Assembly: GCF_017811755.1 (NCBI RefSeq)
Contig: NZ_JADDJF010000001.1
Coordinates: forward strand, 124,001 to 188,000
Direction: 5' to 3'
DNA length: 64,000 bases
Source: Pararhodobacter sp. SW119
GTDB taxonomy: Bacteria > Pseudomonadota > Alphaproteobacteria > Rhodobacterales > Rhodobacteraceae
The notes under the pieces were generated by a model. It had not been told where the DNA came from, did not search any database, and saw nothing but the letters and a program-made list of their open reading frames with translations. Each line of letters begins with the position of its first letter. The stretch's first letter is position 1. This document shows, piece after piece, positions 45,243 through 53,665 of the stretch. The translations under genes were made by a program, and so were the position numbers.

Positions 45243-45636
45243 CCCGCACCTGCCGCGGCCGGTGGACCGGTTCGCGGGGCCGGCGCTCGGCCCCCATCGA
45301 GGGGGCCTCGCGCCGCGGGGGCTGACGCCCCCGGTCGAGCCGCCCCGGCCCCGCGCCGCACCCGAGAGCCCGAGGATGCTCCCGCCCCTCGTCAAGCTGC
45401 ACGCTGCGCGTGCAACTTTCCTCGCGTTGGGCCGGGCGCCGCGCGCTTCGCGCGCGGCGAAAAGAGTCTCCGCCGCAAAACGCCGGACATTCCACCCAAC
45501 GCCCGCAACTTCATCTGTCCAAAAAATATCCCGGGGGGTGAATTGGCGCAGCCAAGAGGGGGGCAGCGCCCCCCTGATCCACCTCGTCACCAGTCCGAGC
45601 CTCGGTCGGGCAGCGGTTACCGAACCCCTGCCGCAC
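45243..45636. other. Non-coding convergent region with GC hairpins
   Basis: I see no gene here. It holds four strong hairpins: 45289-45307 (GGCCCCC/GGGGGCC), 45316-45333 (loop TGAC), 45438-45458 (GCCGCGCG/CGCGCGGC) and 45558-45574 (GGGGGGC/GCCCCCC). Between the last two is AAAAAATATCCCGGGGGG (45521-45538). Read on the minus strand this gives a GC stretch followed by ATATTTTTT, a pattern I recall at many gene ends in Rhodobacterales. It probably ends transcripts from both sides. The 11-bp repeat array follows directly. Confidence 0.6.
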
Positions 45637-45730
45637 CGTTCGGAACTGCCATACGTTTGCCATACGCTTGCCAGCCGCTTGCCAGCCGCTTGCCATACAC
45701 TTTCCGGCACCCTGCCGACGCCCGTTTCGG
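45637..45730. repeat. Helically phased 11-bp repeat array, copy 1
   Basis: TGCC recurs at 45647, 45658, 45669, 45680, 45691 and 45713 (TTCC at 45702), exactly every 11 bp. Typical units are TTGCCATACGC and TTGCCAGCCGC. The first 40 bases (45637-45676) are identical to 52617-52656. The array ends eight bases before the stop codon of the minus-strand phosphotransferase gene. As 11 is not a multiple of three, and no spacers separate the units, it is neither coding nor CRISPR. Confidence 0.85.
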
Positions 45731-45737
45731 GCGGATT

Positions 45738-46745
45738 TCAGCCCCGCGCGCGCACCATGTCCCAGGCGATCTCCGCCAGCGGCCCAGCCGTGCGCCCCAT
45801 CTCCGCCGCCTTCGGGTCCGACGCCGTCCCGTCCTCGGCCCGCTTGGCGATGCCCTGCAGGATCGCGGCAATCCGGAACAGTGCGAGAATGACGTAAAAG
45901 TCAAAGTTGTCAGGTCGTTGCCGCCCGGTCCTGCTGCACCAGGCATCGACATAGTCGGCCTCCTGCGGGATGCCCGTGCCCGCCAGATCGACCCCGCCCA
46001 GCCCCCGGAACAGCCCCGGCGCGATCCGCCAGACCATCACGTTATAGGCGAAATCGGCATAGGGACAGCCCAGCGTCGACAGCTCCCAGTCTACCACGGC
46101 TAGTACCCGCGGCTCGGTCAGATGCAAGATCAGGTTGTCCAGCCGGTAATCCCCATGCACCAGCCGCACCTCCTCCTCGCGCTGCGGCAGGTTCTCGGGC
46201 AACCACGCGATCAGCCCCTCCATCGCCTCGATCTTCCGCGTCTCGCTCGCGCGGTACTGCTTCGTCCACCGATGCACCTGCCGCGCCACATACCCCCCCG
46301 GCCGCCCGTAGTCGCCCAGGCCCACCGCGTCCGGATCGACCAGGCTGATCGCCGCATGCGTCGCGTTCATCGCGTCGAAAATCCCCGCCCGTTCAACGGG
46401 TTCGACCCCCGGCAGGCGTGGGTCGAACAGCACCCGCCCGGGCAGGAAATCCATGACAAAGAACATCGCCCCCATGACCGACGCGTCCTCGCACAGCGCA
46501 TGCACCTTCGGCACCGGCACATCCGTATCCGCCAGCGCCCGCATCACCCGAAACTCCCGGTCGACCGCATGCGCCGAGGGAAGAACATCCCCCAAGGGCT
46601 TTTGTCGCAACACATAATCGCCACTGGCCGCGCAGATCTTCCAGGTCGGGTTCGACTGCCCGCCCGACAGCCGTTCCAGCCGCAGCGGCCCCGCATAGCC
46701 CGGCACATGCGCCGTCATCCACCGTTCCAGTTCCGCCTCGGCCAT
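45738..46745 (-). CDS. APH-type phosphotransferase, LvaA/ACAD11-kinase-like
   Basis: This 335-residue aminoglycoside-phosphotransferase-fold kinase has [12 protein letters not shown], the catalytic [11 protein letters not shown] and the metal-binding [18 protein letters not shown]. Close relatives are fused to or encoded beside acyl-CoA dehydrogenases; LvaA of Pseudomonas putida and the kinase domains of mammalian ACAD10/11 phosphorylate 4-hydroxyacyl-CoA. The divergent acyl-CoA dehydrogenase here supports that role. ATG 46745 follows GGGGGAAAGG eight bases upstream; the longer frame crosses the divergent promoter. Confidence 0.85.
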
Positions 46746-46866
46746 CCTGCGCGCCTTTCCCCCGACCATGCGACCGTCCCGCCTGTCGTGCGCCAAGTCA
46801 AGCCGCGCCTGCTTGCCAGCCCGCAGCCCCCCCGCTACCGTGCCGCCAACCGCAGGAGGACCCCGA

Positions 46867-48122
<1,256 letters not shown>

Positions 48123-50393: not shown

Positions 50394-51494
50394 ATGAGCG
50401 ACGCCATCCGCCCGCAACCCGGCATCCTGGACATCGCGCTCTATGAAGGCGGCAAGGCCAAGCTCGCCGGCCGGGACGAGGTTCTGAAGCTCTCGTCGAA
50501 CGAGAACCCGCTGGGCCCCGGCCCCGCCGCGCAGGCCGCGCTCAAGCGGCTGGTGCTGGGCAATGCGGGGGCGGATCTGCACCGCTACCCCTCGACCGAC
50601 CACGCCGAGCTGCGCGAGACCATCGCCCGCGTCCACGGCCTCGATGCGGCGCGGGTGATCTGTGGCGTCGGCTCGGACGAGGTCATCGCCTTTCTCTGCC
50701 AGGCCTATGCCGGCCCGGGCGACGAGGTGCTGTTCAGCCAGTACGGCTTCCTGATGTACCGCATCTCGGCCCAGGCCGCCGGCGCCACGCCCGTCGCCGC
50801 GCCCGAACGCGACCGCCACACCGATGTCGATGCGCTGCTGGCCGCGGCGACCGAACGCACGCGGCTGGTGTTCGTCGCCAATCCCAACAATCCGACCGGC
50901 ACGATGATCGACCCGTCCGAGATCGAGCGGCTGGCCGACGGCCTGCCCGATCACGCGCTTCTGGTGCTCGACGGGGCCTATGCCGAATATGTGGAAGGCT
51001 TCGACGGCGGCCTCGCGCTGGTCGAGGGGCGCAGCAATGTCGTCATGACCCGCACGCTGTCCAAGATCCACGGGCTGGGCGGGCTGCGCGTCGGCTGGGG
51101 CTACGGGCCGAAGGCGGTGATCGACGTGCTCAACCGCGTGCGCGGGCCCTTCAACCTGTCGAGCCTGCAGCAGGCCATCGCCACCGCCGCGCTGGAGGAT
51201 CACGACCATGTCGCCCGCTCGCGCCGCGAAAACGCCGCCGCCCGTGACTGGCTGACCGGCGCGCTGCGCGCCGCCGGGGTCGGGGTCGATGACAGCCTGG
51301 GCAACTTCATCCTCGCCCGCTTCGACACGCCGGCGCGCGCCGCTCAGGTCGATGCGGCGCTTCAGGCGGGCGGCATCCTCGTGCGCCGGATGGACGGCTA
51401 CGCCCTGCCCGAGGCGCTGCGCATCACCATCGGCACGATGGAGGATTGCCGCCGCCTTGCCGGTCTGGTTGTCCAGACGTTGGAAGCCGACTGA
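50394..51494 (+). CDS. hisC: Histidinol-phosphate aminotransferase
   Basis: HisC is a PLP enzyme that transaminates imidazole-acetol phosphate in histidine synthesis and often also acts on aromatic keto acids. Motifs are [44 protein letters not shown] and the Schiff-base lysine in [17 protein letters not shown]. The 366 residues are typical. ATG 50394 follows AAGGAGGATTTG. It shares a base with the tyrC start, suggesting the protein also serves tyrosine and phenylalanine synthesis. Confidence 0.95.
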
Positions 51495-52423
51495 TGGCCC
51501 CGCAAACCCAGGTTCATTTCCGCAAGGTCGCGCTGATCGGACTGGGGCTGATCGCCTCGTCGATGGCGCATGCGATGCGCCGCCACGGGCTGGCGGGCGC
51601 CATTTCCGGCCATGCCCGCACCCCTGAAACCCGCGCCGCCGCGCTTGAGATCGGCCTCGTCGATACCGTCCACGACAGTGCCGCCGACGCCGTGCAGGGC
51701 GCAGATCTGGTGGTCCTCGCCGTGCCCATCGGCGCGATGGAGGCGGTCGCGCGCGAAATCGCCCCGCATCTGGCGCCGGGCTGCACGCTGACCGATGTCG
51801 GCTCGGTCAAGCAGGCGGTGATCGATGCGGTCGCGCCACACCTGCCGAAGGGCGTGCATTTCATCCCCGGCCACCCGATGGCCGGGACCGAACATTCCGG
51901 CCCCTATTCGGGTTTCGCGACGCTCTTTGAAAACCGCTGGTGGCTGCTGACGCCGCTGCCGGACAGCGACCCCGCCGCCGTCGCGCGGCTGCGCGATTTC
52001 TGCCAGGCTCTGGGTGCCAATGTCGAGGAGATGGACGCCCCGCATCACGATCTGGTCGTGGCCGTGGTCAGCCACACGCCGCACCTGATCGCCTACACGA
52101 TGGTGGGTGTCGCCGATCACCTGCGCCGCGTCTCGCAGTCCGAGGTGATCAAGTATTCCGCCGCCGGCTTTCGGGACTTCACGCGCATCGCCGCCTCGGA
52201 CCCGGTGATGTGGCGCGACGTGTTTCTGACCAACAAGGAGGCGACGCTCGACATCCTCGGCCGCTTCACCGAGGAGCTGTTCGTGCTGCAACGCGCGATC
52301 CGCATGGGCGACGGCGCCTATCTGCACGACTATTTCACCCGCACCCGCGCCATCCGCCGCGGCATCATCGAAGCCGGTCAGGACACCGACGCGCCGGACT
52401 TCGGGCGCGCCAAGCGCGGCTGA
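51494..52423 (+). CDS. tyrC: Prephenate/arogenate dehydrogenase
   Basis: This 309-residue cyclohexadienyl dehydrogenase begins with a Rossmann motif (VALIGLGLIASSMAHAM). LTDVGSVKQAV, the substrate-binding GHPMAGTEHSGP and VAVVSHTPHLIAY are all family-specific. It oxidatively decarboxylates prephenate or arogenate on the way to tyrosine. The start shares a base with the hisC stop (TGATG). The 11-bp repeat array lies in the convergent gap downstream. Confidence 0.94.
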   Translation: MAPQTQVHFRKVALIGLGLIASSMAHAMRRHGLAGAISGHARTPETRAAALEIGLVDTVHDSAADAVQGADLVVLAVPIGAMEAVAREIAPHLAPGCTLTDVGSVKQAVIDAVAPHLPKGVHFIPGHPMAGTEHSGPYSGFATLFENRWWLLTPLPDSDPAAVARLRDFCQALGANVEEMDAPHHDLVVAVVSHTPHLIAYTMVGVADHLRRVSQSEVIKYSAAGFRDFTRIAASDPVMWRDVFLTNKEATLDILGRFTEELFVLQRAIRMGDGAYLHDYFTRTRAIRRGIIEAGQDTDAPDFGRAKRG

Positions 52424-52616: not shown

Positions 52617-52690
52617 CGTTCGGAACTGCCATACGTTTGCCATACGCTTGCCAGCCATTTGCCATACGCTTGCCAGCACCCTGCCAGCGC
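52617..52690. repeat. Helically phased 11-bp repeat array, copy 2
   Basis: TGCC recurs at 52627, 52638, 52649, 52660, 52671 and 52682, exactly every 11 bp with no exception. The first 40 bases are identical to copy 1 at 45637-45676. The array runs directly into the stop codon (52691-52693) of the minus-strand tsaC gene. It lies in the 267-bp gap between convergent tyrC and tsaC. Confidence 0.85.
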
Positions 52691-53665
52691 CTATTTCGGC
52701 CCCTCCCGCGGCGCCGCCGCGCGCCCCAATCGGTCATTGATCGCCCGTCCCAGACCCACCTCCGGGACCGGCGCCACCGCGATCCGCCCCCCCGCGCCAG
52801 CCCGTGCATCGGCCTCGTGCAACAGGTGGAAGAGCCGCGCCGCCGCCTCCGTCAGATCGCCCGAGGGCGACAGGTTCAGTCCTTCACTTCCAGAAAGGAT
52901 CTTGCCAAACCCAAGCCATACCTCATCTTTTTCTGGTCGAGCGACCTCCAGCCGAACCGCGCCGCGCGGCGCGTAATGCGACGCCAACTGCCCCGGCGCC
53001 GACAGAAGCGCGCCATCCTGCCGCGCCGCAACCTTGAGGCCGAGCACCTCCTCGATCCGCTCGACCGGCAACCCGCCCTCGCGCAGCAGGATCGGCACCG
53101 CGCCCGTGGCATCAAGGATCGTCGATTCCACTCCCACCGCGCAGTCGCCACCATCAACCACCCCCGCGATCCGCCCCTCCAACCCGGCCAGCACATGCGC
53201 CGCGCTGACCGGGCTGATCCGGCCGGACGGGTTGGCCGAGGGGGCCGCCAGGCCGCCGCCGACGGCCGCCAGCACTGCCCGCGCGACGGGATGCGCCGGC
53301 AGGCGCAACGCCACCGTATCCAGGCCCGCGGTCACCAGCGGTGCCACCCGCGCCCCCGGCTTCAGGCGCAGGACCAGCGTCAGCGGGCCGGGCCAGAAGG
53401 CTGCCGCCAGCGCCCGAGCCAGAGGGGAAAGCCGTGCGATCTCGGTGACTTGCGCCATGTCCGCCAGATGCACGATCAGCGGGTTGAAGCGCGGCCGGTC
53501 CTTGGCCGCGAAGATCGCCGCCACCGCGTGGTCGTTCGCCGCATCGCCGGCCAGCCCGTAGACCGTCTCGGTCGGGATGGCGACCAGCGCGCCCGCGCGC
53601 AGCAGCGCCGCGGCACGGGCGATGCCTTCTGCATCGGGTTGCAGGATCTGGGTCGAAGCGGGCAT
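52691..53665 (-). CDS. tsaC: L-threonylcarbamoyladenylate synthase, Sua5/TsaC type
   Basis: This 324-residue enzyme makes threonylcarbamoyl-AMP from threonine, bicarbonate and ATP, the first step of t6A37 tRNA modification. The YrdC domain has VAIPTETVYGLAGDA, KDRPRFNPLIVHLADMAQV and SANPSGRISPVSAAHV. A C-terminal Sua5 domain follows (PGQLASHYAPRGAVRLEVA), which explains the length. trmO in this window acts later on the same modified base. The gene is divergent from an acyl-CoA dehydrogenase gene. Confidence 0.95.
   Translation of the reverse strand: MPASTQILQPDAEGIARAAALLRAGALVAIPTETVYGLAGDAANDHAVAAIFAAKDRPRFNPLIVHLADMAQVTEIARLSPLARALAAAFWPGPLTLVLRLKPGARVAPLVTAGLDTVALRLPAHPVARAVLAAVGGGLAAPSANPSGRISPVSAAHVLAGLEGRIAGVVDGGDCAVGVESTILDATGAVPILLREGGLPVERIEEVLGLKVAARQDGALLSAPGQLASHYAPRGAVRLEVARPEKDEVWLGFGKILSGSEGLNLSPSGDLTEAAARLFHLLHEADARAGAGGRIAVAPVPEVGLGRAINDRLGRAAAPREGPK

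Follow-up and report, generated by a model that had tools for sequence, protein, structure and literature searches.

In the window analysed here, a 64,000-nucleotide stretch of a contig of Pararhodobacter sp. SW119, a tandem array of TGCC-bearing units lies between a plus-strand gene on its left and the minus-strand gene tsaC on its right. Direct reading placed TGCC at 52627, 52638, 52649, 52660, 52671 and 52682, so that an earlier note on this DNA, which had reported six TGCC at exact 11-bp steps, was correct, and its observation that the last unit touches the tsaC stop codon holds as well, since the sixth unit (52682-52692) overlaps that codon (CTA on the plus strand, 52691-52693). The second array described there, with 40 identical bases and near another minus-strand gene, was recovered at 45647-45716: the 40 bases CGTTCGGAACTGCCATACGTTTGCCATACGCTTGCCAGCC are identical between the two arrays, and the sister array, whose units start at 45647, 45658, 45669, 45680, 45691, 45702 (TTCC) and 45713, ends shortly ahead of the stop codon of the gene at 45738-46925 on the minus strand. 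The features are as follows.

45382-45575, plus strand: separate dispersed module CTCCCGCCCCTCGTC ... GTGAATTGGCGCAGCCAAGAGGGGGGCAGCGCCCCCC, with upstream hairpins, about 70-265 bp left of the sister array
45638-45646, plus strand: GTTCGGAAC border of the sister array
45647-45716, plus strand: sister array, with TGCC in its first five units and its last and a degenerate TTCC in between, in 11-bp register throughout
51494-52423, plus strand: gene left of the array and converging on it (open reading frame), by sequence recognition presumably a prephenate dehydrogenase gene
52618-52626, plus strand: near-palindromic left border GTTCGGAAC of an apparently recently copied subfamily (direct reading; copies keep positions -10 to -1)
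52627-52692, plus strand: six-unit 11-bp array TGCCATACGTT TGCCATACGCT TGCCAGCCATT TGCCATACGCT TGCCAGCACCC TGCCAGCGCCT
52691-53665, minus strand: tsaC (Sua5/YciO/YrdC type; open reading frame with relatives in the genus), whose stop codon is touched by the array

The three-unit pattern TGCC-N7 matched seven times in the window, against 0.04 matches expected from shuffles. The earlier note had placed every unit on the same face of the helix; this is only approximately true over six units, with a drift of about 17 degrees per unit if the helical repeat is modelled as 10.48 bp. Its suggestion of intrinsic curvature did not hold as a property of the family and was rejected, as the median wedge-model value of the arrays reached the 76th percentile of the background values and only 5% of arrays lay above the 95th; the window array itself lies above the 95th percentile.

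Copies, placement and unit structure

The dispersed family proposed in the earlier note extends well past the window. Three-unit matches numbered 208 (121 + 87) in the 4.5-Mb source genome and none in the reversed control, 55 genome copies have the GTTCGNNAC start with up to two mismatches allowed, and further copies, whose absence from both genome and relatives had been named as part of the outcome that would speak against it, were found in both. Most source-genome copies have in common an element of about 72 bp (GTTCGGAAC plus 4-6 units), with a common core from -14 to +57 relative to the first TGCC and a weaker TTRCC near -31, and therefore most of them, the window copy included, look as if they had been copied recently. 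The module CTCCCGCCCCTCGTC ... GTGAATTGGCGCAGCCAAGAGGGGGGCAGCGCCCCCC has 31 intergenic copies in the genome, most of them to the left of a TGCC array and always equally far from it, and about 22 array copies bear this module of about 200 bp on their left. A reconstruction of the empty site at tsaC was attempted and abandoned, the genus neighbours being too diverged to reveal breakpoints; at this locus G635 has no array, and G636 has one that is spelled differently and runs the other way.

For the placement study, 60 regions of the source genome holding 61 arrays were taken, and genes were called with our own codon-model predictions from a caller trained on the window. By these calls all 61 arrays are intergenic (27 between convergent genes, 13 in +|+ gaps, 11 in -|- gaps, 6 in divergent gaps, 4 at contig ends), and a coding role was therefore rejected. 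Divergent (promoter) gaps are avoided. The 139 arrays that could be assigned across the sampled genomes comprise 45 in +|+ gaps, 43 in convergent, 36 in -|- and only 15 in divergent ones; a further 13 arrays lie inside called open reading frames, probably through errors of the gene caller. Both array orientations are about equally frequent in tandem gene pairs (45 vs 36), and for this reason a function tied to the RNA of one strand does not hold in general, and neither does a minus-strand 3' end, to which the earlier note had drawn attention, as the functional feature. Neither strand gave a consistent fold in 12 copies and there was no Rfam match above the gathering score, so that a structured RNA was rejected, as was a replichore polarity of the KOPS or Chi kind, the complete match list for G035 being mixed.

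The refined unit is TGCC[A/C][G/T]AC followed by 3 bp. The variable letters of 570 units from the sampled Rhodobacteraceae arrays read AT in 353, CG in 76 and AG in 69 cases, and never CT, so that CTAC is absent (0/570) although the pattern permits four spellings. On the GGCA strand, T or C precedes the G run in 569 of the 570 units, where CTAC would place A; its absence leaves this position to a pyrimidine and agrees with the period-11 consensus of RNA polymerase pausing. Of 118 arrays, 83 have the degenerate unit that follows the last perfect one at +11, two have it at +10 and none at +12. Where the sequence of the array decays, the 11-bp step thus persists, but this is not proof of selection, because tandem repeats born by slippage keep their unit length despite substitutions. 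In several genera, TTAA boxes left of the arrays are concentrated at -36 and -25/-24, and Marinosulfonomonas has boxes at +24/+25. Their phase concentration is strong (Rayleigh p about 3e-8) without a class at -30, which sits half a turn off the main register and was left out post hoc, after inspection of the data; with this class included it is weaker (p 6e-4).

Relatives and shared sites

Four-unit TGCC arrays are rare across the 248 family genomes and patchy within Rhodobacteraceae, and of the 380 further genomes sampled from the class none has the TGCC[AC][GT]AC pattern. Among the matches listed for the named genome collection, most relatives are Rhodobacteraceae, including a Marinosulfonomonas MAG, Tabrizicola, Rhodobacter calidifons, Puniceibacterium and others; most of the sampled relatives are draft genomes. 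Within the same genus, 3 of 18 genomes have arrays, one unrelated short match being set aside. The unrelated Anaerolineae and Bacteroidales bear repeats of similar spelling, which may be a matter of convergence. The Anaerolineae MAG Zod_Metabat.387 (Chloroflexota; L118, L131, L151, L155 and others) has about 20 dispersed TGCCATACTGC matches with similar flanks within long intergenic stretches, and in Bacteroidales MAGs (L091, L094, L108, L116, L168) 11-bp TGCCATAC repeats are followed by inverted copies (GTATGGCA), together forming large imperfect palindromes. A phage origin was rejected, as blastn gave no match in phage records and the 25 viral-contig matches of the loose pattern were heterogeneous. 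No description of the motif was found in the literature searched, which comprised open-licence papers.

Comparison of array neighbours revealed that the same gaps are occupied in different genera. In a sample of 30 genomes chosen to include known array carriers, the gap downstream of gltD holds an array in 13 of 13 array-bearing genomes and in none of 17 array-less ones. The units read GT[AC][GT]GGCA in the sense of gltD, the TGCC strand being antisense to the gene; the score is high at period 11 only and on one strand only, and none of 200 shuffles reached the scores of the 13. This is not a mere outcome of the choice of genomes, since the search pattern itself is missing at several of the gltD sites, those of G145, G074, G135, G635 and G636. 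On the GltD tree, array presence changes seven times, at least four changes being forced by supported branches, and these represent array loss, regain or both. Further shared sites lie at genes that we take, from sequence recognition, to be glyS-ppdK, lpdA, deoD, pyrB and a taurine-type ABC gene.

The orientation is conserved at each shared site, and the spelling there is genome-specific: at glyS-ppdK the source genome has ATAC/AGCC units and G035 has CGAC, and the taurine-type ABC gene has AGAC in Tabrizicola and ATAC in two others. The gltD array of G636, GCGTAGGACAN, has changed its spelling as a whole and retained the 11-bp step. Downstream of gltD in this genome (L265), units GCGTAGGACNN stand in place of GCGTATGGCAN.

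Possible roles and known systems

The presence of phased repeats at conserved gaps, with changing spelling, suggests that a putative protein lines up at gene boundaries. Tentatively, we prefer to read the array as a boundary element between genes to which such a protein would bind head-to-tail. Four to six head-to-tail 11-bp sites (TGCC-[A/C][G/T]AC-N3) on roughly one helix face would be bound side by side by a sequence-specific protein, which would cover some 45-65 bp where transcription units end; once bound, the array would mark or insulate the gap between genes, either by organising local chromosome structure or by blocking invading transcription. A DNA-binding protein fits because of the helical phasing, the in-register flanking boxes and the genome-wide spelling, and the unbiased orientation in tandem gene pairs is as expected of a function at the DNA level. 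The cooperative binding put forward in the earlier note is favoured indirectly, by a step that outlives the sequence, by the genome-specific spelling and by the in-register TTAA boxes, but a comparison of array neighbours across genomes yielded neither a co-occurring binding protein nor a recurrent neighbouring regulator. The largest neighbour cluster consists of weakly similar proteins that are apparently ABC ATPases, an abundant family. Against a boundary function speak the congeners that mostly live without arrays, the at least four gains or losses demanded by the tree and the -30 TTAA class outside the main register. A more specific version, in which the protein's specificity would shift between lineages so that all arrays of one genome would be respelled together while positions and 11-bp phasing are kept, is distinctly unlikely on present evidence; here the arrays would possibly be a chromosomal counterpart of plasmid iterons, because nearly identical arrays lie beside mobP2 genes in Firmicute plasmids.

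The features that fit a binding protein also partly fit a self-copying repeat family, because the unit length of tandem repeats stays constant in any case, and the flanks common to most source-genome copies are as good an argument for copying as they are for function. The main rival, an interspersed repeat of the MITE or REP type that is selfish or neutral, appears somewhat unlikely. In this reading each genome would have its own master copy, which spreads into gaps free of genes, while replication slippage makes and renews the 11-bp units and gene conversion gives every genome a spelling of its own. It would account for the preference for 3' ends, since promoters would be purged, and it draws on the near-identical core in most source-genome copies, often together with the second module at a fixed distance, on the patchiness inside one genus, on the wholesale respelling at gltD in G636 and on the differences between G635 and G636 at tsaC. 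Arrays that keep their orientation at orthologous sites of many genera, however, are not what random insertion predicts, neither terminal inverted repeats nor target duplications were recognised, and the Y1 (RAYT) transposase domain PF01797 was absent from 9 of 10 array-bearing genomes searched. The source genome has the only Y1 matches among these ten, a short IS200-like frame (L381:7282-7713; contig C35:63281-63713), seemingly internally deleted, plus a fragment, and mobilisation by RAYT was not supported.

Two readings at the RNA level agree surprisingly well with the grammar of the sequence, but not with the orientation data. The TGCC strand could act as a Rho-utilisation site, an RNA rich in C and poor in G, with YC steps 11 nt apart, that ends left-hand transcripts and antisense transcription entering the right-hand gene. 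RhoTermPredict seeks 78 nt with C/G >1 and cytosines every 11-13 nt (PMC6407284), a definition to which the arrays conform (C/G 1.65 over 78 nt in the window array; family median 1.9 and minimum 1.3 over 66 nt). Such sites are expected in sense at transcript ends, but the tandem orientation has no sense bias and the conserved gltD arrays carry the TGCC strand antisense to gltD; moreover, Rho requires neither an exact 11-nt step nor the TGCC spelling, and we consider this role improbable. On the GGCA strand, the units could slow or protect the transcripts of adjacent genes, either as tandem pause sites (G-11 G-10 ... Y-1 G+1, period 11) or as a 3' UTR motif GU[AC][UG]GGCA. The near-invariant pyrimidine and the missing CTAC match the pause element, quoted as G-11 G-10 (C/T)-1 G+1 (PMC6407284), and right-hand minus-strand genes end a median of 39 bp from the array. 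However, 45 of 139 arrays stand between two genes for which the GGCA strand is antisense, 12 copies gave no consistent RNA fold, there was no Rfam match, and the G636 gltD array (GTAGGAC) violates the pause rule, which makes an elongation signal very improbable.

Should the arrays be bound by a protein, as in the boundary reading that we prefer, they would reveal an undescribed system, present at dozens of sites in each genome, that organises the chromosome or insulates transcription, and they would offer a natural example of co-evolution between a binding protein and its site. Even if they are neutral, simple random-insertion models do not predict that a repeat family stays in the same gaps from one genus to the next. 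The gltD site offers a test bed at a single locus in multiple genera, with matched array-less relatives.

Several known systems resemble the arrays in part. Operators of the OmpR/PhoB family, such as the pho box of PhoB, the 11-nt direct repeat units of Streptomyces PhoP and the TTAA-N7-TTAA of CtrA, are 11-bp head-to-tail sites read cooperatively by winged-helix proteins. The arrays share the 11-bp direct-repeat step and have TTAA boxes beside them too, but their core differs, and they lie at gene ends rather than in the promoters of an evident regulon, with only 15 of 139 in divergent gaps. The rut sites share a C-rich strand with YC every 11 nt; the arrays differ from them by the exact step, the fixed spelling and the lack of a sense-strand bias.

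Tandem 11-bp repeats are also found in parC of plasmid R1, where ParR binds. The pMV158-type bind locus comprises four tandem 11-bp repeats in pGL2 (PMC3387028). In plasmid iterons of this kind, a multimeric protein of the plasmid binds the direct repeats, whereas our arrays are chromosomal, dispersed at gene ends and surrounded by ordinary genes, with no replication, partition or transfer genes adjoining. A blastn search with the array gave a match on Listeria ivanovii pLIS48 (38 bp, 94.7%, E 2e-7) by the mobP2 relaxase gene, and on Bacillus plasmids it gave matches in unannotated regions beside mobP2; the units include ATAC and, in Listeria, AGCC. These TGCCATAC/TGCCAGCC arrays adjoining mobP2 (L378:3840-4045 in pLIS48; L379:4001-4046 and L380 in Bacillus plasmids) are unannotated. 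They are likely to be an oriT or relaxosome binding region, and small open reading frames beside them are ribbon-helix-helix-like by eye, with sub-threshold matches only in Pfam/NCBIfam. The look-alikes are suggestive of an iteron-like role and are not evidence of homology.

The REP/BIME elements of enterobacteria are, like the arrays, short, present in many copies and strictly intergenic, and they occur at the 3' ends of genes and in convergent gaps. Their units are palindromes that form hairpins, whereas the array unit is a direct phased 11-bp repeat with no consistent fold in 12 copies, GTTCGGAAC being a short near-palindromic border in one genome only. The Y1 (RAYT) transposase that co-occurs with REP is lacking in most array-bearing genomes. 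In contrast to REP/BIME, the arrays are kept at orthologous sites across genera while their spelling changes.
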